Origin: Rhizobium sp. CG5
GTDB taxonomy: Bacteria > Pseudomonadota > Alphaproteobacteria > Rhizobiales > Rhizobiaceae
DNA length: 64,000 nt
Assembly (NCBI RefSeq): GCF_023701945.1
Contig: NZ_JABAEF010000017.1
Location: forward strand, 1 to 64,000
Reading direction: 5' to 3'
The position numbers were made by a program, and so were the translations under genes. Below the pieces are notes generated by a model. The model worked only from the letters and a program-made list of their open reading frames with translations, was not told the origin of the DNA and did not search any database. This document shows, in pieces, positions 43,014-63,844 of the stretch; positions within the stretch are counted from its first letter, which is position 1, and each line of letters begins with the position of its first letter.

Positions 43014-43428
43014 CAGACGGCTGATGCCGGTTCTGGTCTCGGCGCTATCACTGCGCTCGGCTTCGCTGCAACCATTGATGACCCGACACGCTTCAAACGA
43101 TCATCCAGCGCCGGTGCTTATCTTGGGCTGACACCTCGCATCTACGCATCCGGTGAGAAGATGAGATCCGGGCGGGTGTCGAAACGGGGCGATGACTTCT
43201 TCGACGCAGCCTTTATGAGGCAGCCAATGCGCTGCTGACACATATTCCACAGTTCTCCCCTTTGAAGAGCTGGGGATTACGCATCGCCCGGCGTGGCGGC
43301 TATCGAAAAGCTAAGCTGGCTGTCGCCCGAAAGCTCGCCGTGATCCTTCACGCGATGTGGATTTCGGGGAACCCTTCCGCTGGTCATCGCAAGAGCCGAG
43401 CGAGCTGGCATGTCGGCATGGATCATTA
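43014..43428 (+). pseudogene. C-terminal remnant of a second IS110-family transposase
   Basis: Frames in this stretch give GAITALGFAATIDDPTRFKRSSSAGAYLGLTPR, SGRVSKRGDDFF and, after a frame change, ANALLTHIPQFSPLKSWGLRIARRGGYRKAKLAVARKLAVILHAMW, which together form the Transposase_20 C-terminal domain. The N-terminal catalytic domain is absent. It differs from the IS110 copy at 157-1140, so it comes from another element. Confidence 0.8.
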
Positions 43429-45216
43429 AAACTCCTCCCAGCTCGCCTCTTTGGTCGCCAACGCCGCCAAGCCTCGCATCGCCACCGGCGAGGTCGCTAT
43501 TCTCGTGGCACGGGGAGTGGTGGAAGCCACGGAGGGTGTCGAAACGCCGCGGGAAGATCCTACAATACGGGGCGTATCTTGGAATTTGAACTGTTCAAGG
43601 AGTTCGAACAGTGCCGTCGCCTCCTGCGCAAGCCCATGACTTGCGGCTGTCTGTTCCTCGACCATGGCGGCGTTTTGTTGCGTGCCCTGATCGACCGTAT
43701 TGATCGCCTGATTGATCTCGCCAAGGGCAATCGATTGTTCTCGTGAGGCTTCAACGATGGCCACGACATTCGAGTTGATATCGTGGACCTGAGTTGCGAT
43801 CTCCTGCAAGGCGGAGCCGGCCTTTGTGACAAGCGACACCCCATTTTGCACGTGTCCGCCTGATGCCGTTATCAAGGTCTTGATCTCTTTGGCGGCCTTA
43901 GCTGAGCGCTGCGCGAGTTCACGCACCTCTTGCGCAACCACCGCGAAACCCTTGCCGGCGTCCCCTGCCCGCGCGGCTTCGACCCCGGCATTGAGGGCAA
44001 GCAAGTTCGTCTGGAAGGCGATCTCGTCGATGACGCCGATTATATTGGAAATCTCGCGTGACGAGGTTTCAATCTGATCCATGGCACTGATGGCGTCACG
44101 CACGACCTGGCCGGAATGCTCGGCATGTTCCCGAGTATGTCCGACGAGCTTCCCGGCTTCTTCTGCACGGCGACTCGAGTCCGTCACCGTCGTCGTGATC
44201 TCCTCGAGCGCAGCGGCCGTCTCCTCAACTGAAGCGGCCTGCTGCTCGGTCCGCTTTGCCAACTCGTCAGCCGCGGTCCGAATCTCGCTTGAACCCGACG
44301 CAATCGCACGGGCATTGTCGGCAACCGTAGCCATTGCGTGCTTGAGCTTCGTGGTTGCGGCATTGAAATCTGACCGGAGCCGTTCCAGCGACGGGATGAA
44401 CGGGTTCTCTATCTTCTGCGACAGGTCGCCGTTTGCGAGGTTGGTGAGACATCCGGCGAGCGTGTCGACATTTTCGACGCGACCGGTCACGTCGGTCGCG
44501 AACTTCACCACCTTGAAGACTTTTCCGTTCATGTCGAAAATCGGGTTGTAGGAAGCTTGTATATGAATCTTGCGACCGCCCTTGCCGACCCGCATGAATT
44601 CGTCCGCCGCCAGCTCACCTCCAGAAAGTTTCTTCCAGAACTCGCGATAGGCGGTTGATGAAGTGTAGGAAGGATCGCAAAACAGGGAATGGTGCTTGCC
44701 TTGAATTTCAGAGAGCGAGTAGCCGAGGGTAGAAAGGAAGTTTTCATTGGCGGTCACGATTTCGCCGGTAGGGGTGAACTCAATAATCGCTTGGGCGCGC
44801 GACAGCGCCTCCATCTTGCCGGCATCCTCGGCCGCCTTCAGCCTCTGCGCCGTTATGTCCGTGGCAATCTTGATCACCTTAACGGCTTTACCGCGACGGA
44901 TCACCGGGTTATAGGACGCTTCGATCCAGACTTCCTTGCCGCCTTTACCGATGCGTTTGTATTGCTGTTGGTCGAATCGTCCAGCCGCAAGCTTTGACCA
45001 GAATGCTTTGTAGTCTGCCGACCGCGCATATTCCGGATCGACGAACATAGTGTGCTGCTTACCAATAATTTCGGCAAGGTCGTAGCCGAGGGCTCGGCAG
45101 AAATTTTCGTTCGCTGTCAATATCTTGCCGGATAGATCGAACTCGATCATGGCCTGCGATTTAGAAAGCGCGGCAAGAACCGCGACAGCATTGGCACCAC
45201 GATCGAGAATATTCAC
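43426..45216 (-). CDS. Soluble methyl-accepting chemotaxis protein with two PAS domains
   Basis: About 596 aa. Two PAS domains come first (about residues 15-125 and 140-245; each has ANENF and a conserved ASYNP segment followed by KVxKxATD). A HAMP-like linker follows, then a long coiled signalling domain with the receptor tip ([42 protein letters not shown]). There is no membrane segment, so it senses internally, perhaps redox or a bound cofactor. It ends ASWEEF, a C-terminal tether (WxxF) for CheR/CheB. I prefer the GTG at 45216 because GGAGG lies 7 bases upstream; ATGs at 45243 and 45279 lack one. It is separate from the chemosensory operon at 56.6 kb. Confidence 0.9.
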   Translation of the reverse strand: MNILDRGANAVAVLAALSKSQAMIEFDLSGKILTANENFCRALGYDLAEIIGKQHTMFVDPEYARSADYKAFWSKLAAGRFDQQQYKRIGKGGKEVWIEASYNPVIRRGKAVKVIKIATDITAQRLKAAEDAGKMEALSRAQAIIEFTPTGEIVTANENFLSTLGYSLSEIQGKHHSLFCDPSYTSSTAYREFWKKLSGGELAADEFMRVGKGGRKIHIQASYNPIFDMNGKVFKVVKFATDVTGRVENVDTLAGCLTNLANGDLSQKIENPFIPSLERLRSDFNAATTKLKHAMATVADNARAIASGSSEIRTAADELAKRTEQQAASVEETAAALEEITTTVTDSSRRAEEAGKLVGHTREHAEHSGQVVRDAISAMDQIETSSREISNIIGVIDEIAFQTNLLALNAGVEAARAGDAGKGFAVVAQEVRELAQRSAKAAKEIKTLITASGGHVQNGVSLVTKAGSALQEIATQVHDINSNVVAIVEASREQSIALGEINQAINTVDQGTQQNAAMVEEQTAASHGLAQEATALFELLEQFKFQDTPRIVGSSRGVSTPSVASTTPRATRIATSPVAMRGLAALATKEASWEEF

Positions 45217-45583
45217 GACATTTCCTCCGGCGAAATCTTGCATGGCGATAAGATGAGCCAAGTAAGTATATTCGCACATGCATATTAATCAGGATTTAAT
45301 TATAATTTTAACGTTCAGCAGGTTAGACTGGGAGCACAGATTCGAAGCAATGGAGCAATCAAAATGCGATCACCAGACCTCGACGAGCGCGGCCATATGG
45401 TTAATCCGCCGCTTCGCGAACGCATGTCGATCGGTTTGACAGCAGGGATCTCTCTCGGATGACTGGGAGTCCGATGGACGGACAATGCTCAGCTACACAT
45501 ACAAGCCCGTCATCTCTTTAGTGTAGGCTCAAAACGACGAATTTCTGCGTTCGGCTGACCGACAACAAAACGGAAAGTGAAAA
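45217..45583. other. Intergenic region upstream of the PAS chemoreceptor
   Basis: About 370 bases, AT-rich near 45270-45330, where the chemoreceptor promoter probably lies. No gene is supported. The right part is the former leader of the degraded flavin reductase gene. Confidence 0.4.
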
Positions 45584-47096: not shown

Positions 47097-47339
47097 CTAT
47101 GCAGAGATCGCCGATGGGCGACTGCCCTGAACTGTGGGAGAGAAGCATTGCGGCTGCATTACAGGATTGGCCACCCGGCGCCGCTTCAACACGTGGGTGC
47201 AGTGAGGGCGAACTACTGTATGAAGCGGCGCGATAGCATTAAGGAGGATAATCGGACCGCCGAGCAGCGCAGCGAACAGGATCGCGGAAAAGAGCAGGCG
47301 GCTGACAATGCGGGTAATCGATTTGCGGTTTATTGACAT
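47097..47339 (-). CDS. Small hydrophobic protein coupled to the RND pump gene
   Basis: Eighty aa. The ATG at 47339 overlaps the stop of the RND pump gene (ATGTCAATAA), so it is translationally coupled. Residues about 11-36 (ISRLLFSAILFAALLGGPIILLNAIA, read loosely) form one membrane segment; the rest is basic and low in recognisable sequence. It may be a genuine small membrane protein of the efflux operon or the truncated start of a lost gene, since the following DNA is debris. Confidence 0.45.
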   Translation of the reverse strand: MSINRKSITRIVSRLLFSAILFAALLGGPIILLNAIAPLHTVVRPHCTHVLKRRRVANPVMQPQCFSPTVQGSRPSAISA

Positions 47340-50300
47340 TGTCCTACTTCGCCGGTTGCGAACGGAGTTGGCGCAATGATGCGAGGCGGGCCCTTCACTT
47401 TCCGAATCAAGCTGTCGATGCAGGAAATGATCACCGGGATAACGATCAGACTGAGAACTGTGGAGCTTATAAGCCCACCGATAACCGCATGTGCCATGGG
47501 AGCCCTCTGTGCGCCGGCCCCGGAAGTTTCCAAGGCAAGGGGCATCATGCCGCAGATCATCGCAAGCGTTGTCATCACGATCGGGCGAAAGCGGACAGCG
47601 CCGGCATTTGCTATGGCCTCGGCAACGGGCAGTCCGCGTTGGCGCTCCCGGTTCGCGAAGTCGACCAGCAATATGCCGTTCTTCGTGACGAGCCCCATCA
47701 ACATGATAAAGCCGATCATCGAGAACATGTTGATGGTGCTTCCGGCAGCCAACAGCCCGATCAACACACCCATCAGCGACAGAGGAAGTGCCGCCATGAT
47801 GGCAAGCGGTTGCAAGAAACTTCCGAACTGCGACGCAAGCACGACGTAGATGAAGATCACTGCCATGATCAGGGCCTTAAGCAGGCTCGCAGCTGCTTTC
47901 TCAACGTCTTCGGCGTCGCCCCCAAATTTGATCCGGTATCCTGCAGGGAGTTCCTGTTTGGCTATGATGGCCTCGAGATCGGCCGTGACGTCACCCATGG
48001 CACGACCCGATATATCGGCGGAGATCAGAACTTCACGTGACTGGTCCAGGCGGCGGATTTCCGATGCAGCCGGAACCAGATCGATGTCAGCAATCTGGTC
48101 GAGCCTCACCATGCGTGGACTTTCACTGTTGGCGGTATCTGGCAATTTGATCAATAAATCGCGGATAGCGGAGACGCTGTCTCGTTGATCCACGGGGAGT
48201 CGAACCACCAAATCGTAAGTTTGACCAAGCGGATCGGACCAGGTTCCGACCTCTTCGCCATCGACGAATGGTGAGAGCATCGCGGAAAGCTCGCGGACGC
48301 CAACACCAAGGTCACCGGCTTGCTCGCGCTTCAGCCGTACCGAGAAAAGCAATTTCCCATCGCTGGCGCTTGAATTGACATCCACTACTCCTGGGATCCG
48401 GCGCATGCCCGCAATCAGCTCTGCTGCGGCTTTTTCCAAGACCGCACGATCATCGCCGAGCAAGCTCAGTTGGATCGGGCTTGCACCGCCACCGAGACCG
48501 GCTTGAATGATGGCGATGTTGATCCCGGGGATCACTGAAAGGCGCTTGCGGATCGGGTCAGCCAGCGTCACGGGAGTTCGATGGCGTTCTTGTTGAGGCA
48601 CAAGACTAAGAATCAATGTCGCGTTGTGTTTGCCTGGATTGCCGCCCGTATTGATCGTCGAATAGGTGGAGGTCAACTCGGGAAATTCACGCAAAGCGGC
48701 TTCAACCTGCTGAAGTTTTGCAGTGGTGTAATCCAGCGATGAGCCCGCTGGAGCGGTTATGTTGATCTGAAACTGTCCCTCGTCCGAAGTCGAAACAAAC
48801 TCAACGCCCACAAGTGGAACCATGAAAATGCTCGCAATGAACACCGCTGTTGTGAGCAAGAGCGTGACCAGGCGATAGCGCAGCGCCCAGCGGATCATCT
48901 TCCGGTAGATGGCGACAATCACCTCAAAACCATTATCGAAGCGCGCGATGGTACGGCCAATCGGGCCGCCAACCGCATTAAGCTCAGCATCTGGGTCATG
49001 CCATATGCTGGAGAGCATGGGGTCGAGCGTAAACGCCACGAACAGCGAAATCATCACCGCTGCGGAGACGGTAACGCCGAACTCATAGAAGAAGCGACCG
49101 ACCATGCCGTCCATGAAGGCAACCGGCAGGAAAACGGCAACAATTGCCGCTGTGGTTGCCATTACGGCAAGCCCGATTTCGTTTGTGCCATCGAGTGCCG
49201 CCTGGAAATGCGACTTACCCATGCGCAGGTGACGGGTAATATTTTCACGGACGACAATGGCGTCATCGACCAGGATGCCGATCGAAAGCGTCAGGGCAAG
49301 CAAACTGAGCATGTTGAGGGTAAAACCCAGGAGATCAATGACAGCGAGTGTGCCGATCATCGAGATTGGCAATGTCAGCGCGGTGATGACGGTGCTTCGC
49401 CACGAATTGAGGAAGAGGAAGACAATGGCGACTGCCAGCGCCGCCCCTTCGATCAAGGTCGATTGAACTTCACTGAGCGACTCCACAATGGGTTTGGATG
49501 CATCCTTGATGATTTGAAACTGCACATCCTTCGGACCCAGGACGACGGTGAGCTGATCAAGCCGTTTGCGCAGCTCGCTTACCACCTGCACGGTGTTTGC
49601 GTCCTGAATCTTAACGAGGTCAATCGCCAACGCCGTCTCACCATCGTACATGGCCCGGCTTTCCAGATCCGCCGGGCCGGTTCTTACCGAGGCCACGTCC
49701 GAAAGGTAAACAGGGAGCCCACCGCGGCGGGCAATCACCAGATCAAGTAATTCCTTGGGCTCCGAGAGCCGACCCTGGATCTGAATAGTGCGTTCGGAGA
49801 GGTCGCTGATGATGCTTCCGGCCGGCCGGTTCCTGTTGCTGCTCTTGATTGCTTCGATCACTTCGTCGGCGCCTACACTAAGAGCGGTCAACCGCGTTTC
49901 GTCGATTTGAATATCGATCTGCTGTTTCTGGCCGCCAACCAGTGTTGCCTGCCCAACGCCGGACACGGTCGCGAGCTCGCGGATCACGCGCTCCTGAACA
50001 AGATTGGTCAATTCGGGCACGCCCAGGGTTGCGGACGTGACGGCAATCGAGAGGATCGGCTCGTCCAACGGATTGAAGCGCGAGACGATGGGCTTGTCGG
50101 CCTCTTCCGGGAACTCTGCGTCAAGGGCTGCGACCTTGTCACGGACGTCTTGCGCCGCGACCGGGCTTTGCACCTCGAGTTGAAAACTCGCCACGACGAC
50201 GGATCGACCTTCGTAGGATGTTGAAGTTACGTCCTCGATACCGCTGATCGTGTTGAGCGCCTCCTCGATCGGCTTGGTTACGTCCATCTCGACAGCTTCG

Positions 50301-50467
50301 GGCGTGGCGCCAGGGTAAGTGGTGGTGACGACCACCACTGGAACATCGACATTTGGAAACTGATCGACCCCCAGCCGATCATACGAGAAGGCGCCGATCA
50401 CCAGCAGAACCACCATCATCATGGTGGCAAAAACCGGATTACCGATGGAAATGCGGGTGAGAAACAT
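47330..50467 (-). CDS. RND-family efflux pump inner-membrane transporter (AcrB/MexB type)
   Basis: About 1045 aa, the normal length for the HAE1/AcrB family. The start at 50467 (MFLTRISIGNPVFATMMMVVLLVIG) opens with the first membrane helix. TM4 contains SIGILVDDAIVVREN with the two proton-relay Asp, and TM10 contains MLMGLVTKNGILLVDFAN with the conserved Lys. The duplicated periplasmic loops carry DQFPNVDVPVVVV and the second-repeat equivalents. It starts 4 bases after the membrane-fusion-protein gene. It exports hydrophobic compounds across both membranes, using an outer-membrane factor not encoded here. Confidence 0.95.
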   Translation of the reverse strand: MFLTRISIGNPVFATMMMVVLLVIGAFSYDRLGVDQFPNVDVPVVVVTTTYPGATPEAVEMDVTKPIEEALNTISGIEDVTSTSYEGRSVVVASFQLEVQSPVAAQDVRDKVAALDAEFPEEADKPIVSRFNPLDEPILSIAVTSATLGVPELTNLVQERVIRELATVSGVGQATLVGGQKQQIDIQIDETRLTALSVGADEVIEAIKSSNRNRPAGSIISDLSERTIQIQGRLSEPKELLDLVIARRGGLPVYLSDVASVRTGPADLESRAMYDGETALAIDLVKIQDANTVQVVSELRKRLDQLTVVLGPKDVQFQIIKDASKPIVESLSEVQSTLIEGAALAVAIVFLFLNSWRSTVITALTLPISMIGTLAVIDLLGFTLNMLSLLALTLSIGILVDDAIVVRENITRHLRMGKSHFQAALDGTNEIGLAVMATTAAIVAVFLPVAFMDGMVGRFFYEFGVTVSAAVMISLFVAFTLDPMLSSIWHDPDAELNAVGGPIGRTIARFDNGFEVIVAIYRKMIRWALRYRLVTLLLTTAVFIASIFMVPLVGVEFVSTSDEGQFQINITAPAGSSLDYTTAKLQQVEAALREFPELTSTYSTINTGGNPGKHNATLILSLVPQQERHRTPVTLADPIRKRLSVIPGINIAIIQAGLGGGASPIQLSLLGDDRAVLEKAAAELIAGMRRIPGVVDVNSSASDGKLLFSVRLKREQAGDLGVGVRELSAMLSPFVDGEEVGTWSDPLGQTYDLVVRLPVDQRDSVSAIRDLLIKLPDTANSESPRMVRLDQIADIDLVPAASEIRRLDQSREVLISADISGRAMGDVTADLEAIIAKQELPAGYRIKFGGDAEDVEKAAASLLKALIMAVIFIYVVLASQFGSFLQPLAIMAALPLSLMGVLIGLLAAGSTINMFSMIGFIMLMGLVTKNGILLVDFANRERQRGLPVAEAIANAGAVRFRPIVMTTLAMICGMMPLALETSGAGAQRAPMAHAVIGGLISSTVLSLIVIPVIISCIDSLIRKVKGPPRIIAPTPFATGEVGQCQ

Positions 50468-50471
50468 GAAC

Positions 50472-51728
50472 TTATTCCATCTTCGCGACTGTGACGACAA
50501 GGCCCGGCTGCAGCTCGGCAAGTGGCGCCCTTACGATCATGTCGCCGGGCGCAAGACCAGAGACCTCGGCCATCTGGTTGTCATCCCACCTTGAGATGAT
50601 GCTCACCGGCTGGCGGATGAGAATGCCGTCCACGAGTTTGAGAACGTGAGCGTCTTTATCGTCTCCCCGAAATGAGGCGACAGGAATGGCAATTGCGTCT
50701 TCGGTCTGCCGGACCAGGATTGAGCCGTGGACAAACATGCCTCCCTTGAAGTGGTAGCCATTGCCTGAAAGACGAATATGGACAGCCACCGAGCGGCTAC
50801 CGTCGTCGGCGACCGGACTGATCCGAGCGACCTTTCCCCTGATCACCTGATTTTGGACGCCATCGACCTGAAGCTCCACGACCTGTCCTTCAGCGACACG
50901 AGTAACCTCTTGCGTCGAAATCAGAACCCTGGCTTCCATATCGCTCACGTCGACAAGGGTGAGAAGTTCCGCGTCTGCCGCGATTTGCGCACCCTGATTG
51001 ACCGAAAGCTTGGATATCACGCCGTCAAAGGGGGCAAGGATCTCGGCATTCTGCAAAGCTGTTCGCGCTATTTCGACGTAGGCGGCAAGGCTATCCAGCC
51101 GGGCTTTTCTTGCCGCAACCTCACTACGTGCTTTGTCGAGCTGCTCTTGGCTTGTAATATGTTTGCTCGATAGCCGCTCAATCCGGTTGAGCGACTGCAT
51201 TGCAAGGATCATTTCGGCCATTGCGCCTTCCTGGTCCGCCTCTTTTTGTTTCAGAGCGGCCTGAAGGTCGGCTGACTCAAACCCGATCAAAACTTCACCC
51301 GCCCTTACGGACTGTCCTTCTCGAATGCTCGAATGGGTAACCCTGCCCCCACTGATGGCGCGCAGTTCTACAAGACGGGAGGGACGAAGTTCGCCCGTTA
51401 CCCTGAGCCGCTCAACAAGCGCGGCCGGCTGAATCTCAGCGACTTCCATTGCCGAGAGTTCGAACGATGATGGCGTGCCACGGATATGCGCGGCCACCAC
51501 CACCTTTTGCAGTCGTTCGTTAGGTCCGCTCGTTCCCCGTGCAGGGCCGATCAAAGCGACGGAGCAATAGACGCTACCAAAAAGCGCCGCTGCTATTATG
51601 AATATTTTCTTCCGTTGGGATGCCATGAAGTCGACCTCTTGTGATAGGGCACCGCGTATCAAGCCGTCTGCTACCGCGTCTGTAGGTGGACGATGAGGTT
51701 CGACAATTGCAGCAGCATTAACCGCCAT
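50472..51728 (-). CDS. RND efflux membrane-fusion (adaptor) protein
   Basis: About 418 aa. The N-terminal 40 residues are cytoplasmic, followed by one membrane anchor (KIFIIAAALFGSVYCSVALI). Then come the lipoyl/barrel-sandwich domain split around an alpha-hairpin (SIREGQSVRAGEVLIGFESADLQAALKQKEAD ... AEILAPFDGVISKLSVNQGAQI) and the beta-barrel and membrane-proximal domains. The start at 51728 (MAVNAAAIVEPH) has GAGG upstream. It is first in the pump operon and divergent from the two-component system at 51799, which probably controls it. Confidence 0.92.
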   Translation of the reverse strand: MAVNAAAIVEPHRPPTDAVADGLIRGALSQEVDFMASQRKKIFIIAAALFGSVYCSVALIGPARGTSGPNERLQKVVVAAHIRGTPSSFELSAMEVAEIQPAALVERLRVTGELRPSRLVELRAISGGRVTHSSIREGQSVRAGEVLIGFESADLQAALKQKEADQEGAMAEMILAMQSLNRIERLSSKHITSQEQLDKARSEVAARKARLDSLAAYVEIARTALQNAEILAPFDGVISKLSVNQGAQIAADAELLTLVDVSDMEARVLISTQEVTRVAEGQVVELQVDGVQNQVIRGKVARISPVADDGSRSVAVHIRLSGNGYHFKGGMFVHGSILVRQTEDAIAIPVASFRGDDKDAHVLKLVDGILIRQPVSIISRWDDNQMAEVSGLAPGDMIVRAPLAELQPGLVVTVAKME

Positions 51729-51798
51729 CTTTTTATCCTCGTAATACTGCTGCAATGTTCCTGGTGACATTGCTGCAAGGACAGGATGCGGGGCTACG
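51729..51798. promoter_or_regulatory. Divergent promoter region between the efflux operon and its two-component system
   Basis: TGCTGCAA occurs as a direct repeat at 51748-51755 and 51771-51778. GCAATGT (51752-51758) pairs with ACATTGC (51767-51773) as an inverted repeat. Direct repeats of this kind suit an OmpR-type regulator, so this is the likely binding site for the response regulator encoded at 51799. Confidence 0.6.
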
Positions 51799-52470
51799 AT
51801 GAGACTTCTGTTGATCGAGGATGAAAGGGAACTGGCGACAGCGCTATCGGCTGCGCTGTCAAAGCACGGGATCGTTACCGATCACACGATGTACCTCGCC
51901 GATGCCCATGAGCTCGTTCTGCAAAATGACTACGACGCCATCCTTCTGGATCGGCGTTTGCCGGACGGAGAGGGACTGACATTCATCCCGATATTAAGGC
52001 GTGCAGGCAATGATACGCCAATCATCGTACTCACTGCCCGAAACGAGCCAATGGAACGGGTTGCGGGCCTCGATTTCGGTGCGGACGATTATCTTGGAAA
52101 ACCGTTTCTGGTTGAGGAGTTGATGGCGCGTGTCCGTGCGCTACTGCGAAGGCCGTCTGGCGTGATCGATCAAGATATCAAGGTTGGACGATTGGCGATC
52201 GACCCATTGAACCTCACTGTCAGAATTGGAAGCGTTACGCTCGAGATCCCGCGCCGGGAGCTTTTGGTTCTCCAGGCGCTTGCAAAACGCAAGGGCAAAA
52301 CCGTTCTTCGGGCCACGCTCGAACAGGCGGTCTATAATTACGAAGAAGAGATACAATCAAACGCACTGGATGCGCACATTTCCAGGCTGCGCAAGAGATT
52401 ATCGGATGTCGATGCGGGCACGACGATTCACAACATCCGCGGTGTCGGCTATCTCCTGAAGGAAGAATAA
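51799..52470 (+). CDS. OmpR-family response regulator
   Basis: A 223-aa protein. The receiver domain (1-115) has the acidic pair E7/D8, phospho-acceptor D51 (DAILLDRRLPDGEG), Thr in VLTAR and Lys in GKPF. The winged-helix DNA-binding domain (about 125-222) ends RLRKRLSDVDAGTTIHNIRGVGYLL. Its stop overlaps the start of the kinase gene (TAATG). It most likely regulates the divergent efflux operon. Confidence 0.94.
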   Translation: MRLLLIEDERELATALSAALSKHGIVTDHTMYLADAHELVLQNDYDAILLDRRLPDGEGLTFIPILRRAGNDTPIIVLTARNEPMERVAGLDFGADDYLGKPFLVEELMARVRALLRRPSGVIDQDIKVGRLAIDPLNLTVRIGSVTLEIPRRELLVLQALAKRKGKTVLRATLEQAVYNYEEEIQSNALDAHISRLRKRLSDVDAGTTIHNIRGVGYLLKEE

Positions 52471-53807
52471 TGGGTGCATACCGATCGACAAACCCATCAC
52501 TTTGGTGGCGCCTAAGCTGGCAACTCAGCCTGGTGATCAGCGCGGTAATCGGTGGTGTGATCGTTGGGCTATCGGCGTACGGCACGATGGTGATGTCGCC
52601 CAACATAGCGATGGAGAGCGAGGTCAAGAACGCTGTTGCCGAATCGATCAGGCGAAATGGCGGCGGCCAGCTTGAACTCGAAGACACCCTCTTAATGCGG
52701 GCGCTGATGGAGGAGAACAGTCATCTGTGGTTTGTAGCGGCCACTGCCGACGGTACCTTCGTCTCTCGGGGAGCTATACCCGCACCATATGTTGCGATCG
52801 TTCCTTTAACCTACCTGTTTGATTCCGCGGATATCCGCGAGGCAGACGGAATAGACGAAATCGCATCGATCGATGATGTTGCGACGCCCCTGGGTGAAGT
52901 GCGCGTATTATTTGGAGGCATAGCCAGCAAAGGCTCGCCGGTGCTTGCGGTGCTCGGGCAAGCCTATCCGATTTATGTATCGCTGCTTGCGATGGCATTG
53001 CCCGCCATATTTATTGCTGTCCCATGGATCGTTCGAAGCGCCCTTGCAAGGATCAGTGATGTTGCGGACAGAGCATCGCAAATTGACCCGCATCGTCAGG
53101 GCAGCCGTCTTCCTGTCGAAGGGATTCCGGGCGAAGTCGCTCCGCTCGTCGCGGCGTTCAACGGCACTCTCGAGAGGCTTGAGACTGAATTCAAAAAACG
53201 CCAGCGGTTCTTGATCGACGCTGCTCATGAGCTCAGAACACCCATCGCCATTATGCAAACGCGCATCGACGGCATGTCAGATGGCCAGGAGCGCACACGC
53301 ATGTTGCAAGATGTGGCGCGCCTCGCCGACACGGCGGAACAGTTGCTTGACTTCGAACGCAACGATCAAGCGGTAGACCTTGATGAAGAGGTCGATCTCG
53401 TTACGATCGCGCGTGCCGTCGTGGCTGACTTTGCGCCTCTCGCGATCGCAGCCGGCTATGAAATTTCATTTCAAAGCGAGGTTGAAGCTCTCCCCCGCAG
53501 GGGCAACAGCATTGCGTTGACCAGGGCGATCGGCAACTTGGTCCGCAATGCGATCGACCATTGCGATGGAAGAGGAACGATTGAGGTCTCGGTCTCCGCG
53601 TCTGGTGAGATCACCGTCGGCGATGAGGGACCTGGCATACCAGTCGAACATCAGGAACTGGTATTCCAACCATTCTACCGCGTTACCCCGAGAAGCCGGG
53701 GCGCGGGGCTTGGTCTAAGCCTAGTGAAGCAGATCGTCAGCAATCATGGCGGACAAGTTAGCATCCAGAGTCATTCAAGCGGCACGAGAGTTACCGTCCG
53801 CCTTTGA
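52470..53807 (+). CDS. Sensor histidine kinase, partner of the response regulator
   Basis: A 445-aa membrane kinase. Two membrane segments (about 18-42 and 165-187) enclose a periplasmic sensor of about 120 residues. A HAMP-like region follows, then the HisKA dimerisation domain with H253 in DAAHELRTPI and an ATP-binding domain with N-box NLVRNAIDHC, G1 DEGPGIP and G2 GAGLGLSLV. The start ATG at 52470 overlaps the regulator stop. The periplasmic sensor position suggests it detects an envelope or drug signal for the RND pump. Confidence 0.93.
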   Translation: MGAYRSTNPSLWWRLSWQLSLVISAVIGGVIVGLSAYGTMVMSPNIAMESEVKNAVAESIRRNGGGQLELEDTLLMRALMEENSHLWFVAATADGTFVSRGAIPAPYVAIVPLTYLFDSADIREADGIDEIASIDDVATPLGEVRVLFGGIASKGSPVLAVLGQAYPIYVSLLAMALPAIFIAVPWIVRSALARISDVADRASQIDPHRQGSRLPVEGIPGEVAPLVAAFNGTLERLETEFKKRQRFLIDAAHELRTPIAIMQTRIDGMSDGQERTRMLQDVARLADTAEQLLDFERNDQAVDLDEEVDLVTIARAVVADFAPLAIAAGYEISFQSEVEALPRRGNSIALTRAIGNLVRNAIDHCDGRGTIEVSVSASGEITVGDEGPGIPVEHQELVFQPFYRVTPRSRGAGLGLSLVKQIVSNHGGQVSIQSHSSGTRVTVRL

Positions 53808-56229: not shown

Positions 56230-56576
56230 CAATTAATGCCATCATGTGGATCGAAACGGACCGACCAGTCGTACGCCGTGAACGCCAACGTGACAGCTTT
56301 TCAGTTCCATGAACGAGATGACATCGGACAACGGGTCCATTTTAGACGATCCCCAAGGATTATTGGACGGCATAGCATAGATCGTCTCCGCGGCGCGGCG
56401 CTCTAAATGCCACCTGGCGTCGTTCTCGTCCCGTTCCTTTAATCGTTGGCGATCTTGGATGTCCTGTGCATGACGAAAGGTTTGCGTTATGCCGTCGTTT
56501 GCGCCATAGACTGTATGATCAAGGGCAATTCCTTGCGTTGCAGGCTCAGCTCATAAGTTCACGAGATTGGAAACGC
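56230..56576. other. Region upstream of the chemosensory operon
   Basis: About 350 bases before the receptor gene. An open frame reaches back to 56466, but the 37 extra residues ([19 protein letters not shown]...) are not receptor-like. The operon promoter should lie here; no consensus element stands out. Confidence 0.45.
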
Positions 56577-58508
56577 ATGGCACTGGTGAAAACCTCTCAG
56601 TTAGGCGCAAAGACAAATCCTCCGAAGGCCGGCCAGACGGGAGCTGTGGCGGAGCCAAACACAAGATCCGTCAGCCGACGATCGCAGGATCGTTCGCGCG
56701 TGCGGCAACAGCAGGCGGCCGAGCGAATCGGGGCTGCGACGGAACAACTTGCGACGGGCGTGTCGGAAGCCGCGGCAGCCGCAGAAGAGTTGCGCCGGGC
56801 GCTTGAGCAGATCGCCAGCGGGGCCGAAGAAGCAGCAGGAGCGGCGCATGAGTCTTTGTCCGCCACCACCCACCTTTCGGCGCGGTTCTCCGAGGCTAGG
56901 ACGGAAGCGGAAGCCGCGCGCAGGCGCACCGAGGAACTTCAGACCTCTGTCTTCGAATCCGCTGCGCAGATCGATACGTCGATCTCCGCAATCGATGCGA
57001 ATGCTTCACGCCAGATCGCTTCCGTTGCCGTCATCGACAGGCTGCAATCCCAGGCGGAAAGCATCGGCGCTACGACCGTCGCGGTTGCCGATATCTCGGA
57101 CCGCACCAATCTGCTCGCGCTCAATGCGGCGATCGAGGCGGCGCGGGCCGGTGACGAAGGCCGTGGATTTGCGGTCGTCGCCGACGAGGTGCGGTCGCTG
57201 GCGGAAATTGCCGAGCGAAGCTCCCGCGATGTCAGCCAGCATGCCGAGACGGTCGTCGATGGCGTTCGCCGGATTGCCGATCGCATCCGGTCCGCTGCCG
57301 CCAAGGCGCAGGAGCAGACGGCTTCGGGTCGGACGGTGTCCGAGGAACTACATGCCATCCGCTCGGGCCTCACCGCCCTGTCGCAGAACAGCCAGGTGAT
57401 CCTGATCGCTGCGGTCGAAGCGGAAGTCGCAACGCGCGAGGCCCAGAAGGGTGCCGAAGCTGTTGCGGCAGCGGCCGAAGAGCAATCCGCGGCTGCGACC
57501 GAGGCGCAACGCGCGGTCCAGCAACAGAGCGCGGCGTTAGAGGAAAGCCAGCAGACGGCGCAATCTCTGGCCACACTTGCCGATGAGCTGATGAACGAAA
57601 GCGGCCGGGCCTCGCGGACGGAAGAGCTGAGTTCTGCAGCAGAAGAGCTGTCCGCCACCGTTCAGGAGCTTTCCGGTGCGGCTGGTGAAATTCTCATTGC
57701 GATCGAGCAGATCAGCCGCGGGGCGGAAGCGCAGGCAGCTGCCACGCAGCAGGCCAATGCGGCCATGACTCAGATCGAAAAGAGCGCTTCCCAGACGCAG
57801 GAGAGTGCCGAGCAGGCAAGCCAGCGCGCCGAGGAGATCAAGACGTTCCTCGGCAGAAACAAGGCCGGCCTGGATGCGATCGCGGCGGGTGTTTCCGATG
57901 CTCTCGGCGAAACGCGGAACGCTTTGACGGATCTGAATTCGCTCGGCGAGATCGGTTTTCAGATCGAGCGCACGGTGGACCGGATCGTGCTCGTCGCGGT
58001 GCAGACCAGCATGCTCGCGGTCAGCGGTTCGGTGGAAGCGGCAAGGGCCGGCGAGGCGGGCCGTGGTTTTGCGATCGTTTCGACCGATATCCGCAAACTC
58101 GCCCAGGATGCCGCCGAGAATATCGACGGCGTCAAGGACATCGTGCGGCAGATCCAAGTGCAGATCGCCGCCGTGCAGCGGGAACTGGAAATGATCGTCG
58201 TGGCCTCCGAGGCCGAGATCGCCAAGAACAAGCAGATCGTCGATCGGCTGATCGCGGCGGAAGCCGATGTGGACCTGATGGTGCGCGGCAACGCATCGAT
58301 CCTCAATGCGACGCAGGCGATCCTCGTCGCCGCCAAGCAGGTTCAGGCCGGAACGCAGCAGATTGCCTCTGTGGCGCAGGAGGCGAGTGCCGCCTCCGAG
58401 CAGGCGGCGACCGCGGCAAGGCAGCAGTCCCGCGGGGCGGAGGACCTAGCGGCGGCGGTCGAGGAAATCGCATCGCTGGCCGACGAACTCCAGATGTCCG
58501 GAAACTGA
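56577..58508 (+). CDS. Soluble chemoreceptor with two signalling tips
   Basis: About 643 aa, no membrane segment and no recognisable sensor domain; Ala/Glu/Gln-rich coiled coil throughout. It has two separate MCP hairpin tips: [36 protein letters not shown] near residues 175-210, and [37 protein letters not shown] near 475-510. The second is divergent (TSMLAVSGS for TNLLALNAA). Most receptors have one tip, so each polypeptide may hold two kinase-coupling sites. It starts the che operon; the next gene begins 4 bases after its stop. With no sensor domain, input probably comes through a partner protein. Confidence 0.88.
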
Positions 58509-58512
58509 AGCC

Positions 58513-59934
58513 ATGGCAGGGTTACCCTCCCCGGCGGATGTCGATCGGCGGCGGCTGGTATTCCGGGTCGGAGAGCAGAGCCACGAGATCGACGCGGGCC
58601 TTGTGATCGAGGTCGTGAGGGTGCCGTATATCACCCGAGTTCCGCATGGGCCCGAGGCGCTGGCCGGCATCGCCAATCTCCGCGGTAAGCCGGTCCCGGT
58701 CCTGTCAATGGGCAAGGTCCTGAACGGCAGCCACAATGCGCGCCCGGATGGCAAGATCATCGTTTACGATCACGGTGGCGCCGTCGGCCTTCTCGTCGAT
58801 GACGTGTTGCGACTTTCGGCGGATGCGACGGCCGCACCGCTTCAGGATCTGAATGGCCTGCTGGATGCCGCGTTCAAGGTGACGAGGCGCGCGCCGTCTG
58901 AACGGACCGCCCATGGCGACCGTGGTAAAGAGGTGGAGGCGAGCGCTCAGCTCATCGCCTTGCTGTCGTTTCGCGTCGCCGGGCAGCTCTATGGCCTGCC
59001 GCTCGACGATATCCGCGAGGTCGCGATGTTGACCGGCGATATCGCGGTCATTCCGAATGCGGCGTCGGCGGTGGTCGGTCTCATTCCGATGCGCGACAGT
59101 GTTCTGCCCTTGGTGTCGCTGGCATCGCTTCTCGGCCTCGAAGGCGTGCATTCGGCGGTCGAGGGCTCCCGGATCATCGTCGTCGAGCACGAGGGTGATC
59201 TGGTGGGTCTGGTCGTCGATGGCATGGATGTGATCCGCCGACTGCCCGAGGATGCCATCGGTACGGTCCCAGCCGTTCTGCAGCGCGGGCGCGGCGATGC
59301 GCACATCGAGGCGATCGGCCGGATTGCCGATGGCGGACTGCTGATTTCCATCCTGTCGCCGCAAAAACTGTTTGGTCACCACGCCGTCACCCAGGCGATC
59401 GGCCAGAATACAGGAGCCAAACCGATGGGAACGACACGTGAGAGGCAAGAGACGGTCGAACAGTTCCTGATTTTCCAGCTCGGCGACGAGAATTACGGTC
59501 TGCCCATCGGTTCGGTCGACGAAGTCGTGCGGGTTCCAAGCGAAGTCACCCGCATGCCCCGCGCGCCAGCCTTCGTGATGGGCGTCATCAACCTGCGCGG
59601 CAAGGCTATCCCGCTGATAGACCAGCGCACCCGTTTCGACACGTTGGCTTTGGCGCAGACGGCCAAGGCGCGCGCCATCATCGTGACGCTCGGCACGTTG
59701 CAGGCCGGTTTTGTGGTGGATGGCGTATCGGAAGTGAAGGCTGTTTCCTCGGCCGCATTGTCGGCCGCACCCGAGTTTTCTTCCGACCGGACGGAGGTCT
59801 TCGATCGCATCGCCCATATCGAATCCGACGGCCGGATGATCCTGCTCGTCGATCCAAAGGAGCTTCTGAGCCGGGCGGAGCGGGATATCGTGGCGGCGAT
59901 CACCGAAGACAAGCCGGCGGTGGCTGTTCCGTGA
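58513..59934 (+). CDS. Triple-domain CheW coupling protein
   Basis: A 473-aa protein made of three CheW folds in tandem: about residues 12-130 (LVFRVGEQSHEIDAGLVIEVVRVP, IANLRGKPVPVLSM), about 146-285 (LLSFRVAGQLYGLPLDDIREV, VGLIPMRDSVLPLV) and about 316-455 (FLIFQLGDENYGLPIGSVDEVVRVP, VINLRGKAIPLID). A single CheW links receptors to CheA, so this protein may act as a scaffold joining several receptors or kinases. The second domain lacks the usual NLRG (it has IPMRD), suggesting a different partner. Its stop overlaps the cheB start (GTGA). Confidence 0.93.
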   Translation: MAGLPSPADVDRRRLVFRVGEQSHEIDAGLVIEVVRVPYITRVPHGPEALAGIANLRGKPVPVLSMGKVLNGSHNARPDGKIIVYDHGGAVGLLVDDVLRLSADATAAPLQDLNGLLDAAFKVTRRAPSERTAHGDRGKEVEASAQLIALLSFRVAGQLYGLPLDDIREVAMLTGDIAVIPNAASAVVGLIPMRDSVLPLVSLASLLGLEGVHSAVEGSRIIVVEHEGDLVGLVVDGMDVIRRLPEDAIGTVPAVLQRGRGDAHIEAIGRIADGGLLISILSPQKLFGHHAVTQAIGQNTGAKPMGTTRERQETVEQFLIFQLGDENYGLPIGSVDEVVRVPSEVTRMPRAPAFVMGVINLRGKAIPLIDQRTRFDTLALAQTAKARAIIVTLGTLQAGFVVDGVSEVKAVSSAALSAAPEFSSDRTEVFDRIAHIESDGRMILLVDPKELLSRAERDIVAAITEDKPAVAVP

Positions 59935-61016
59935 TCCGTCTTCTCATCGTTGAGGATTCTGCGTTGATGCGGAAGGTTCTGGGCCAGATTTTCAGCGCGG
60001 AAGGGGATTTCGAGATCGAATTCGCCCGCGACGGTGTCGAGGCTCTGAAGGCTGTTTCGAGCTTCCAGCCCCATGTGGTGACCCTCGATATCCACATGCC
60101 TTTGATGGATGGGCTCGCCTGTCTCGATCGCATCATGCTCGAACATCCGTGCCCAGTGGTGATGGTGTCGTCACTAACGGAGGAGGGCGCGGAGGAGACG
60201 TTGACTGCGCTGGAGATCGGCGCGGTCGATTTCATCGCCAAGCCTGGCGGCGCGATTTCACTTTCGATCAATGAACTGACCCCACGTCTTGTCGAAAAGG
60301 TGCGGATGGCAGCGACAGTGCGGATCCGTCGCAGCCGGCGGCTCGCCGAGCGCGTCCGGCTGACGCAGGTCGTTCCATCGCAAACCATAATCCCGTCTCG
60401 CGGTCGCGGGGCCGCCCCCCAACGACCGGTCCGGGATTCAAGTCGAGCCGGTCTCGTGCTGATCGGCACATCCACCGGCGGGCCGCCGGCGCTCGACGCG
60501 GTGCTCGCCCATCTGCCCGCGAACTTTGGCTGGCCGGTGGTCGTGGCGCAGCACATGCCGGCCTCGTTTACCGGACCTCTGGCCCGGCGGCTGGACAAGC
60601 TCTGCGCTTTGACCGTCAGCGAGGTCAGCCAGCAGACCAAACTGGAGCCGGGCAACATCTATATCGCCAAGGGGGATGCGGATATCGTCATCTCCTCGCG
60701 CGCCGGATCGCTGGTGGCGATGGCCGCTCCGAGCGCTCAGGCCTATCGGTGGCATCCGAGCGTCGACCGGATGGTGCGCTCGGCGATGAAACATGCGCCG
60801 GCAACCGATCTCGTCGGCATCCTGATGACCGGCATGGGGAATGACGGCGCCGCCGCCATGGCCGAGCTGCAGGCCGCCGGCGGTTACACGATCGCCGAAT
60901 CCGAAGAGACGGCCGTCGTTTGGGGCATGCCGGGAGAGCTGGTGCGCCTGAATGGCGCGAGCGAGATTAGACGCGTCGAAGACATCGGGGCTTCATTGCT
61001 GGATCGGGTCTGCTGA
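59931..61016 (+). CDS. cheB: Chemotaxis methylesterase CheB
   Basis: A 361-aa protein with a GTG start in a 4-base overlap with the previous gene. The receiver domain has phospho-acceptor D53 in VVTLDIHMP. The C-terminal methylesterase has catalytic S181 (GTSTGGP), H208 (AQHMPASFT) and D305 (MTGMGNDGA). All are present, so the enzyme should be active in demethylating/deamidating receptors. It forms the adaptation pair with the adjacent CheR. Confidence 0.95.
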   Translation: MIRLLIVEDSALMRKVLGQIFSAEGDFEIEFARDGVEALKAVSSFQPHVVTLDIHMPLMDGLACLDRIMLEHPCPVVMVSSLTEEGAEETLTALEIGAVDFIAKPGGAISLSINELTPRLVEKVRMAATVRIRRSRRLAERVRLTQVVPSQTIIPSRGRGAAPQRPVRDSSRAGLVLIGTSTGGPPALDAVLAHLPANFGWPVVVAQHMPASFTGPLARRLDKLCALTVSEVSQQTKLEPGNIYIAKGDADIVISSRAGSLVAMAAPSAQAYRWHPSVDRMVRSAMKHAPATDLVGILMTGMGNDGAAAMAELQAAGGYTIAESEETAVVWGMPGELVRLNGASEIRRVEDIGASLLDRVC

Positions 61017-61882
61017 TGGTGATCCCTCCGGCCAATTCGGGAAATTTTGGTGCGGACCCGCTTTCGGGCGCCGATCTCGAGGAGATCTGCGCGATCATCT
61101 ATCAGCGCAGCGGCATGGTGTTCGGCGAGACCAAGCGTTATTATATCGAGCGTCGCGTCACCGACCTGATCAGCCAGCGCAAGGCCCAATCGGCCAAAAA
61201 CTACATTTCTATCCTGCGCGGTGACCTGCGCGAGACCGAGTTGCTGATCAACAGCTTCACCGTCAACGAGACCTATTTCTATCGCGAGCAGCACCAGCTC
61301 GCCTGCCTCAGCAATTCCATCCTGCCCGATGTGATCAAAGCAAAAGGTCCGGGCGATCGTATCCGTATCTGGTCCATGCCCTGTTCGAGCGGCGAGGAGC
61401 CCTATTCTATCGCCATCTGGCTGCTCGAAAACTGGCCTCTGGTGGATGCCTATAATATCGAGATTACCGGCTCGGATATCGATACCGCCATCCTGCGGCA
61501 GGCGGTGGACGGATACTACGGGCAGCGATCGCTTTCGAAGATCCCGAAAGATATCCTTGACCGGTATTTCGAACCGGAAAAGGATCAGCAACGTCGGCTG
61601 ATCGGCGATTTGCGGGAATCCGTCACCTTTGCTAAGGGCAATATCGTCGATCGGCCAAGCCTAGCGTCACTCGGGCGTTTCGATGTGATATTCTGCCGCA
61701 ACCTGCTGATCTATTTTGACGAGGCGGCCCGCGAAATCGCCGCCCGCAATATTCATGAACTGCTCTATCCCGGCGGCTATATCTGCCTCGGCCATACGGA
61801 ATCCATGTCACGCATTTCGGAGACTTTCGAGCCGGTCCGCTTTTCCGACGCCATCGTCTACCGAGAGGCGGGAGACAAATGA
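61016..61882 (+). CDS. cheR: Chemotaxis methyltransferase CheR
   Basis: A 288-aa protein. The N-terminal helical domain has the R-rich receptor-contact region (YYIERRVTDLISQRKAQ) and the family motif NETYFYRE. The SAM-binding fold contains RIWSMPCSSGEEPYSIAI, and near the C-terminus FDVIFCRNLLIYFD. The ATG overlaps the cheB stop (TGATG). It methylates receptor glutamates. Confidence 0.95.
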   Translation: MVIPPANSGNFGADPLSGADLEEICAIIYQRSGMVFGETKRYYIERRVTDLISQRKAQSAKNYISILRGDLRETELLINSFTVNETYFYREQHQLACLSNSILPDVIKAKGPGDRIRIWSMPCSSGEEPYSIAIWLLENWPLVDAYNIEITGSDIDTAILRQAVDGYYGQRSLSKIPKDILDRYFEPEKDQQRRLIGDLRESVTFAKGNIVDRPSLASLGRFDVIFCRNLLIYFDEAAREIAARNIHELLYPGGYICLGHTESMSRISETFEPVRFSDAIVYREAGDK

Positions 61883-63844
61883 ATGGATGAATTGATCGCC
61901 CAATTCGCCATCGAGGCGCGCGAACTGGTCCAGCAGGCCTCGGAAGACCTGCTGTCGCTGGAGGCCAATCCGCGCCAACGGGAAAGCCTGGAAAGCGCCT
62001 TCCGGGCGATCCACACGCTGAAGGGCTCGGTCGGCCTTTTCGACTTCGGTCCGATGCTCAAAATATTGCACCAGGCGGAAGATCTTCTGTCGCAAGCACG
62101 CGCCGGCAAGATCGTCGTGGACGCGACGCTCATCGATCCGCTTTTCGCGGTGATCGAATGGGTTGACAGCAGCATAGAAGGCATCACCGAGACAGGGCGT
62201 CTTTCCGAAGCGCAGGAGAAGCAGGCGCCGAGGTTGGTGAGGCTGGTGAGCGGCGAAATGACCGAGCGCAACGCCGGGGAGACTGCCCTTGCACCCACGG
62301 CAGTTCCGGACTGGGCGCTGTCTCTGCATCACAAGGTTCCCACGACGGATGCGGCAGGAACCTTGATTGCCATCCGTTACGAGCCGCATCCCGAATGTTT
62401 CTTCAATGGCGACGATCCGCTGGCGACGATATCGCGGCTTTCTGACCTCAGGCATCTGGCTCTTTCGCTCAAGGAACCCCGGCCGGCGCCGCAGGATTAC
62501 GATCCGTTCCGTTGCCATCTGCTGATCGAAGCCGTTTCGGGCGGTTCGCTGGCGGAGGCGGAAGGCGTGTTCCGCCTGATCCCCGATCAGGTCAAGCTTT
62601 TCACCTTGCCCGGATCAGCCGGTGAACGGGCAACCGCCCAGCCGGAGGTCGCGGCATACCGCTCGACGGATCGTCAATCGACCACCATGCGGGTCGATTC
62701 CGCGCGTATCGACAAGCTGGTCGAGATTGCCGGCGAGCTGATCACCGCCAAGAACGGCCTCGTGCCGCTGGCGGATGAAGCACGAAGCCACGGCAATGTC
62801 CAGCTCGCGAGACGCATCCTTTCTAACCACCACGCGATCGATCGTCTGGTCGCCTCGCTCTATAGCGCCGTCACCCAGGCGCGGATGATCCCGCTCGAAC
62901 ACACGTTTCGCCGTTTTCCGCGGCTGGTGCGGGAGACATCGGCAACTCTCGGCAAGGCGCTCGACCTGATTATCGAGGGAGAGGCCGTCGAGGCCGATCG
63001 GGAAATCGTCGAGAACCTGTTCGAACCCCTACTGCATCTCATACGAAACGGTCTCGACCATGGCATCGAGCCGGAAGCCGACCGGCTGCAGCAGTCCAAG
63101 CCCGCCAGAGGTCGTCTCCTGTTGCGCGCCCGGCAGCGTGGCGACCAGATCGAGATCGAAGTGGCCGATGATGGCCGCGGCATAGATCCGCAACGCATCC
63201 GGGCGACAACGATGGATCGCGGTCTAATATCGGAAGGCCAGGCGTCGGCTCTCTCCGACCGGGACGTTCTGCAATTCGTCTTCGCGCCCGGCTTTTCCAC
63301 CGCATCCTCGGTCTCCGACCTGTCCGGCCGCGGGGTCGGCCTCGACGCTGTTCAGAGTTCCGTCAAAAGGCTTGGCGGGACGCTCGAGCTGCAAAGCACG
63401 GTCGGACGCGGCACATCCTTCGTCCTGAAGCTGCCGATCAGCTTTTCGATGACGCAGCTCATGGTCGTTCAGGTCGGCGATGAGCGTTATGGCATCCCCA
63501 TTTCGGATGTCATCGAGACACACAAGCTGCCGGCGAGCGCCGTCCAGTCCGTGCGGGCGGGCAAGGCCTTCGTGCGGCGCAACCGGACGATCCCTTTGCT
63601 GCATCTCGGCGAACTCCTGCAGGTGCAATCGCCGAGCGCGCATTCCAGCGATCTCAAGGTGCTGATCGTGCAGGCTGGGGAAGACGAGATCGGGGTCGCC
63701 GTCGATGAGATTGCCGAGCGTGCCGAGACAATGACGCGGCCGCTGGTGGGCCTGCTGCAGGGCGTGCCCGGGATTGCAGGAACGACTCTGCTGGGGGATG
63801 GAAAGGTCCTGCTGGTCGTGAATATAGAGGAGTTGGTGCCATGA
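61883..63844 (+). CDS. cheA: Chemotaxis histidine kinase CheA
   Basis: A 653-aa protein, starting directly after the cheR stop. The P1 domain has phosphorylated H44 (AIHTLKGSVG). A middle region (about 170-255) may be a divergent P2. P3 dimerisation (MRVDSARIDKLVEIAGELITAKN) is followed by the P4 kinase with N-box HLIRNGLDHGIE, G1 DDGRGIDP and G2 SGRGVGLDAV, then the CheW-like P5 (MVVQVGDERYGIPISDVIETH). No C-terminal receiver is fused. It is the centre of the signalling complex. Confidence 0.96.
   Translation: MDELIAQFAIEARELVQQASEDLLSLEANPRQRESLESAFRAIHTLKGSVGLFDFGPMLKILHQAEDLLSQARAGKIVVDATLIDPLFAVIEWVDSSIEGITETGRLSEAQEKQAPRLVRLVSGEMTERNAGETALAPTAVPDWALSLHHKVPTTDAAGTLIAIRYEPHPECFFNGDDPLATISRLSDLRHLALSLKEPRPAPQDYDPFRCHLLIEAVSGGSLAEAEGVFRLIPDQVKLFTLPGSAGERATAQPEVAAYRSTDRQSTTMRVDSARIDKLVEIAGELITAKNGLVPLADEARSHGNVQLARRILSNHHAIDRLVASLYSAVTQARMIPLEHTFRRFPRLVRETSATLGKALDLIIEGEAVEADREIVENLFEPLLHLIRNGLDHGIEPEADRLQQSKPARGRLLLRARQRGDQIEIEVADDGRGIDPQRIRATTMDRGLISEGQASALSDRDVLQFVFAPGFSTASSVSDLSGRGVGLDAVQSSVKRLGGTLELQSTVGRGTSFVLKLPISFSMTQLMVVQVGDERYGIPISDVIETHKLPASAVQSVRAGKAFVRRNRTIPLLHLGELLQVQSPSAHSSDLKVLIVQAGEDEIGVAVDEIAERAETMTRPLVGLLQGVPGIAGTTLLGDGKVLLVVNIEELVP

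Follow-up and report, generated by a model that had tools for sequence, protein, structure and literature searches.

The stretch of DNA analysed here (hereafter the window) is 64,000 nucleotides long and corresponds to positions 1-64000 of contig NZ_JABAEF010000017.1 (C8, 135,111 bases) of Rhizobium sp. CG5 (GCF_023701945.1). Its last part encodes most of a block of nine genes that begins with a DosM-like chemoreceptor, continues with a triple CheW protein (CheW3) and runs past the window end to a histidine kinase. Beyond the window end, positions are given as window-equivalent coordinates, i.e. the position in locus L017 plus 54000. The genes of the block, and the three domains of CheW3, are the following:

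56577..58508, + strand: DosM-like soluble receptor, 643 aa, with two MCP signalling tips 300 residues apart
58513..59934, + strand: CheW3, three fused CheW domains, 473 aa (Pfam, whole-protein E 3.5e-75)
58555-58812, + strand: CheW domain 1, with NLRG, shortened by about 28 residues in its C-terminal part relative to 14 of 35 relatives
58960-59376, + strand: CheW domain 2, PMRD in place of NLRG, equivalents of E. coli E38 and R62 kept
59461-59877, + strand: CheW domain 3, complete, with NLRG and the lowest variability among the three domains
59931..61016, + strand: CheB, receiver and methylesterase (Pfam)
61016..61882, + strand: CheR methyltransferase (Pfam)
61883..63844, + strand: CheA, 653 aa, with Hpt, dimerisation, ATPase and one CheW domain, without receiver
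63841-64101, + strand: 86-aa protein crossing the window end, STAS-like fold predicted for a close relative
64191-64574 (window-equivalent): CheY-like receiver protein, beginning 191 bases past the window end
64571-65200 (window-equivalent): CheX-like protein, with matches to the CheC and CheX families
65215-66735 (window-equivalent): PAS-PAS-histidine kinase, 506 codons, without receiver

All nine frames of the block, from DosM to the PAS kinase, are open, and the CheW3 gene starts 4 bases past the stop of the DosM gene. The start of DosM was taken as the ATG at 56577, which is shared with relatives (e.g. L036); the ORF list also offers an upstream GTG at 56466. The first-pass annotation had described an ORF with three CheW domains, an adjoining two-tip receptor and a middle CheW domain without NLRG, and this description was borne out. 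Indeed, the ORF has exactly the coordinates 58513-59934, two MCPsignal stretches were found by Pfam within 56577-58508, and the loops of CheW domains 1, 2 and 3 read NLRG, PMRD and NLRG, respectively. All three CheW stretches lie above the Pfam family cut-off, and chance or noise as their source was rejected. The trimming of domain 1, whose Pfam match ends at model position 90 of 138, is an addition to that description. It had also been stated that no CheY or motility gene is present in the window. No free-standing CheY is encoded inside it, but a CheY-like gene lies just outside, at 64191-64574; since the window ends before 64191, the absence is a window-edge effect. Extending the sequence past 64 kb thus revealed CheY-like, CheX-like and PAS histidine kinase genes in succession, and a system devoid of CheY was rejected. 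On the whole contig C8, receiver domains (PF00072) were matched only at 51808 (OmpR-type regulator), 59943 (CheB) and 64203 (the CheY-like protein). Upstream of the cluster, at 47330-53807 of the window, an RND efflux pump gene is accompanied by the genes of a response regulator/HAMP kinase pair and of an adaptor-like protein (identified by eye); they are found also in L085. Just downstream of the PAS kinase, a PAS-GGDEF-EAL type protein apparently split into two frames (L017:13332-14594 and 12890-13366, - strand) was identified by eye. Mobile elements are located near the cluster.

DosM is cytoplasmic and without sensory domain as far as Pfam (E 0.001) and hydropathy indicate: no further Pfam family was matched at that threshold (scan from 56586), and its highest 19-residue hydropathy mean is 1.57, versus 2.42 in a membrane MCP encoded on contig C53 of the same genome. 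The tip motif is present at residues 187 and 487, and the tip-to-tip distance is exactly 300 residues in 35 out of 35 DosM proteins, those of L071 and L072 included. The two tips are unlike in sequence, and in most proteins the second one reads T[SN]MLAV[SN]G[SA][VI]EAARAG. From the second tip to the C-terminus there are 157 residues (about 22 heptads), which, together with the 300 residues between the tips, would be compatible with the receptor length class 44H ascribed to F9. Directly upstream of DosM, a small ORF is present in 12 of 19 named Rhizobiales loci (e.g. L036:6495-6977), and the one that was scanned is a receiver protein; no small upstream ORF of that group was found at the window's own locus. 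A second receptor (43426-45279, - strand) is encoded in the window. It is soluble, with two PAS domains, one tip and no obvious membrane helix, a make-up shared with VC1406 and VCA0864, which are proposed as F9 partner receptors in PMC7534058. Its arm behind the tip counts about 133 residues versus 157 in DosM, i.e. about 24 fewer, and it was set aside as a partner of DosM.

A double-signalling-domain receptor (DosM) and a concatenated triple CheW (CheW3) are presented, in PMC9321776, as architectures unique to chemosensory class F9. According to the same text, 64 of 2781 species have a full F9 gene cluster and 8 have a partial set, horizontal transfer has occurred many times, and 98% of DosM proteins have no sensory domain. 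Because both signature components, the tandem receptor and the adjacent CheW3, are present in the window, the cluster can be assigned to class F9, as a distinct subtype, with a probability that we put at about 0.85. In agreement with this assignment, its CheA groups with other CheW3-linked CheAs, apart from the CheAs of contigs C16 and C22 of its own genome (100/99), in a 22-row tree; this tree comprises 20 of 34 CheW3-linked CheAs and two outgroup CheAs, and contains several long branches, with a program warning that long branches meet. The first-pass annotation had proposed a purpose-built array, possibly not for flagellar motility. Both parts of this proposal fit the published class, but the multiplicity of tips and CheW domains is the signature of the class and is not peculiar to this operon. 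Likewise, comparison with other che clusters showed that the pairing recurs (35 CheW3/DosM loci were compared), but as a pair already published as F9: the DosM/CheW3 pair is real and already known. The window cluster shares with cluster I of Vibrio cholerae (DosM = VC1403, CheW3 = VC1402, CheA = VC1397) the two-tip cytoplasmic receptor adjoining a triple CheW, and a CheA; the pair is described in PMC7534058 as well. No published experiment on a system of the window type was found.

The genome contains a second F9 cluster, on contig C53 (L019), which encodes a two-tip receptor, a triple CheW, a HEAT-repeat protein and a 906-aa CheA. A CheY and a membrane receptor are located upstream (scanned; hydropathy). 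CheB, CheR, a ParA-like protein and additional CheY-like proteins were recognised by similarity or by eye, the receivers being confirmed (PF00072). This cluster has DosM, CheW3, CheB, CheR, CheA and the 300-residue tip spacing in common with the window. However, it follows the usual F9-like layout, with HEAT, CheY, ParA-like protein and membrane MCP, and its CheW3 is only 34% identical to that of the window. Indeed, the usual layout (L019, L071, L072; in L071 and L072, CheB-HEAT-CheR-CheY-CheA-ParA-CheY-MCP) has a HEAT-repeat gene, ParA and an extra MCP, whereas the window type has none of the three. Its CheA measures 820-948 aa, versus 648-653 aa in the window type, and it differs from the window type in the CheX, the PAS kinase and the shortened first CheW domain that characterise the latter.

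The gene order DosM-CheW3-CheB-CheR-CheA-86aa-CheY-CheX-PAS kinase is shared by all 19 named Rhizobiales loci (the search returned 20, of which the Spirochaetaceae locus L054 was set aside). CheX is encoded in these 19 loci, in L068, L069, L070 and L073 and in the window's own cluster, and was not found in L019, L067, L071, L072 and L076-L080. A PAS kinase follows CheX in L068, L069, L070 and L073 as well. HEAT-repeat genes are present in 12 loci, none of them of the window type, and ParA-like genes in 6; L074 and L075 are on short contigs, so that gene absence there is uninformative. In the CheA tree, all CheX-bearing systems sampled (six of the window type, L068, L069, L070 and L073) form one group (98/99), within which L069, whose CheA (533 aa) is probably mis-started, has a long branch. 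L068, L069 and L073 stand between the two layouts, since they combine HEAT and CheX with a full first CheW domain.

Among 199 genomes of the same family, 10 have a match at E 1e-20 or better among the best 8 candidates per genome: the window's genome (G000) with both types, G157, G075, G175 and G178 with the window type, G009, G052, G153 and G169 with the C53-like type (HEAT without CheX), and G125 with a single CheW domain only. A profile of four CheW3 sequences, applied at E 1e-60 to the best 4 candidates per genome, was matched in 5 genomes out of 385 from the class and in 8 out of 398 from the phylum; both sets include the window's own genome and G481. Nine plasmid records carry a CheW3 relative at E 1e-40, and six of these plasmids are typed as conjugative. 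Plasmid pRvVAR0630b of A. vitis carries all nine genes by annotation, with a CheW3 98.7% identical to that of the window, and shares 66% of a 25 kb query at 95.4%. Plasmid pSA2 of Novosphingobium resinovorum (L086) is annotated with MCP-CheW-CheB-CheR-CheA-hypothetical-response regulator-CheX-PAS hybrid kinase, which is the gene order of the window type, but its CheW3 is only 37% identical and the annotation of its kinase includes a response regulator part. The C53-like layout with HEAT and ParA was seen on one Methylobacterium and one Methylosinus plasmid. RepC was matched on four other contigs of the genome and not on C8. No description of the CheX/PAS-kinase gene order was found in the literature searched; it may be contained in tables S5/S6 of PMC9321776 (72 species), in Briegel 2016 or in Wuichet and Zhulin 2010.

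The three domains of CheW3 were compared in 35 proteins (the window, L019, the 19 named Rhizobiales loci and 14 further loci); L081-L084 were dropped as duplicates of L040, L047, L046 and L053, and L054 (Spirochaetaceae, partial match) and G125 (one CheW domain) are outside the counts. An exact NLRG is present in 29, 1 and 30 of the 35 proteins in domains 1, 2 and 3, respectively, and its last glycine in 35, 7 and 35. The glutamate aligned with Glu38 of E. coli CheW is kept in 34, 34 and 34 proteins, and the arginine aligned with Arg62 in 32, 34 and 35. In PMC3828127, a salt bridge between Glu38 and Arg62 is described as keeping the receptor and kinase sites aligned, and Ile55-Val68 of CheW is proposed as a CheA-binding site; the R of NLRG corresponds to Arg62, which places the NLRG loop inside that proposed site. 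The middle domain therefore seems to retain a working CheW fold in which the loop facing CheA has changed. The altered NLRG loop is general among the 35 CheW3 proteins; it was not found in print within the literature searched. Domain 1 is shorter by about 28 residues of its C-terminal part in the CheW3 of the window, of the 19 named Rhizobiales loci and of L070, which makes 21 of the 35 proteins, while the 14 others have these residues. Domain 3, the only one that is both complete and canonical in the window's CheW3, has a mean column entropy of 1.34, versus 1.71 and 1.69 for domains 1 and 2. A tree was built from the domains of 18 of the 35 CheW3 proteins together with six single CheWs encoded in the genome. 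In this tree, each of domains 1, 2 and 3 is set apart by a single branch (supports 88/84, 83/78 and 75/76, respectively; not starred by the program), as expected from a single triple fusion before these systems parted. A predicted model of CheW3 (mean pLDDT 72.6) gave matches to single CheW folds and CheA domains only, and no domain arrangement. Beyond what is known of F9, the additions that were not found in print are thus the CheX/PAS-kinase subtype, the trimmed first CheW domain and the class-wide change of the middle domain.

In the CheY-like protein, the receiver residues D9, D10, D55, T83 and K104 are invariant in 20 sequences. The CheX-like protein contains two E-x-x-N motifs, invariant in 24 sequences, which we take to be the phosphatase motif of CheC and CheX. 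In L068, a second CheX-like gene (L068:19107-19733), 58% identical to the window's CheX, is located after the hybrid kinase. The PAS kinase occurs in two forms: it has 782-811 codons in 16 of the 19 named loci and 505-509 in three (L035, L040 and L042), the window's kinase having 506. The long form (scanned in L036 and L051) consists of PAS, kinase and receiver, while the short form (scanned in L042 and at the window's own locus) has no receiver. The 86-aa protein is encoded next to cheA, and M1, T2, G14, C16, E20, D37, H45, T46 and Q50 are invariant in 18 aligned sequences; a similar frame is present in 8 of 15 other loci (L067, L069-L073, L078 and L080). For the L035 relative of this protein, the best of five AlphaFold2 models (pLDDT 83, the other four 57-67) predicts a mixed strand-helix fold. 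Foldseek ranks STAS proteins first for this model in the PDB, its top eight matches being RsbV and further anti-sigma-factor antagonists, together with a subunit of MlaFEDB; the best E is only 0.025, with a probability of 0.99. A family profile (18 of 20 window-type sequences) gave no significant match to PDB sequences or Pfam, STAS families included, and the 86-aa protein has no significant sequence similarity to the genome's own CheS-like protein. CheS, encoded in the che operon of Sinorhizobium and Agrobacterium, is likewise a small protein encoded beside cheA; according to PMC12654446, the STAS protein CheS of Sinorhizobium binds CheA and assists it in telling two CheYs apart. Despite the absence of significant sequence similarity between the two, the predicted STAS-like fold would make CheS the natural model for the 86-aa protein.

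Flagellar genes are present in the genome, on other contigs. Indeed, contig C22 carries an operon of rhizobial flagellar-che layout, in which a receptor, CheW and FliF were scanned and CheS-, CheY-, CheA-, CheR-, CheB- and CheD-like frames were recognised by eye; Flg_bb_rod has five matches on C22 and one on C14. Pfam FliM (PF02154) has no match in the genome, which probably reflects a limit of the FliM model in this lineage, given that FliMN_C has two matches on C22. The position noted for this in genome G000 is C22:297036-297938. The window block could represent a second flagellar chemotaxis pathway, whose CheY, at 64191, would bind the motor and whose CheX would end the signal. The conserved receiver residues of this CheY, the membership of CheX in a chemotaxis phosphatase family and the complete flagellar set reported for 97% of F9-bearing species (PMC9321776) speak in its favour. 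However, FliMN_C and Flg_bb_rod, the flagellar families searched, have no match on C8, and to judge by these families the window cluster does not adjoin flagellar genes, the arrangement by which a che operon is recognised in Rhizobiaceae. Thus, of the CheY and downstream flagellar genes that, for the first-pass annotation, would have told against a non-flagellar role, the CheY was found downstream and the flagellar genes were not. Moreover, the block ends with the PAS kinase in all 19 named relatives, and PMC7534058 reports no detectable phenotype for a V. cholerae F9 cheA deletion under standard conditions. A second flagellar pathway is therefore improbable, and the main output is likely something other than the flagellar motor.

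The peculiarities of CheW3 could also mean that the cluster is decaying, with CheW3 degenerating (trimmed domain 1, altered domain 2) and signalling lost. Domain 1 is indeed short by about 28 residues, the window's kinase is without the receiver found in the scanned longer relatives, and mobile elements are nearby. In contrast, the nine open frames, the presence of the trimmed domain 1 in proteins down to 44% identity (L070), the retention of the Glu/Arg pair and of the active-site residues, and the block order conserved in every named relative all argue for a functional system, and decay is very improbable.

On the observed gene content, gene order, domain make-up, spacing and conservation, a scheme can be proposed for the preferred reading, an F9 system of a distinct subtype. 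In V. cholerae, PMC7534058 describes the F9 array as purely cytoplasmic, double-layered and 35 nm high, and seen under starvation in late stationary phase. By analogy, the window system may form a two-layered cytoplasmic array: DosM dimers would be rods that reach from one CheA/CheW3 base plate to a second, parallel one, with a tip in each, and would fix the interlayer distance. The constant 300-residue spacing is consistent with a rod that bridges two base plates held at constant separation; however, a straight 300-residue helix would measure about 45 nm, exceeding the height reported for V. cholerae, which counts against this geometry. CheW3 could give three ring positions per chain, with domain 3 as the complete coupling domain and domain 1 trimmed in this lineage. 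Domain 2 would probably occupy a ring position beside other CheW domains and not beside CheA, since it has lost the conserved loop within the proposed CheA-binding stretch yet kept the Glu/Arg pair. As gene content suggests, the receptors would be adapted by CheR and CheB, CheA would phosphorylate CheB and CheY (64191-64574), and CheX would remove the phosphate. The predicted STAS-like 86-aa protein may tune the CheA-CheY step, as CheS does in Sinorhizobium, and the downstream PAS kinase could provide cytoplasmic (redox or ligand) input to, or read output from, the same CheY.

For class F9 as a whole, it is tentatively suggested, at somewhat less than even odds, that it comprises two stable machines, of which one is the usual type and the other a CheX type, carried mostly on plasmids, with a short CheA, CheX and a PAS kinase; the HEAT-less branch of the CheX type also has a trimmed first CheW domain. 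The double-layered cytoplasmic array of the CheX type would feed a two-component kinase relay rather than the flagellar motor, with tasks divided among the three CheW domains and the two unlike tips. In every named Rhizobiales relative examined, the array genes are accompanied by those of a CheX phosphatase and a PAS kinase, which provides candidates for input and output and makes the output of F9, whose arrays have been imaged in V. cholerae, accessible to testing. In addition, the unequal CheW domains and tips lead to specific predictions for how a concatenated scaffold may be placed in a hexagonal lattice.
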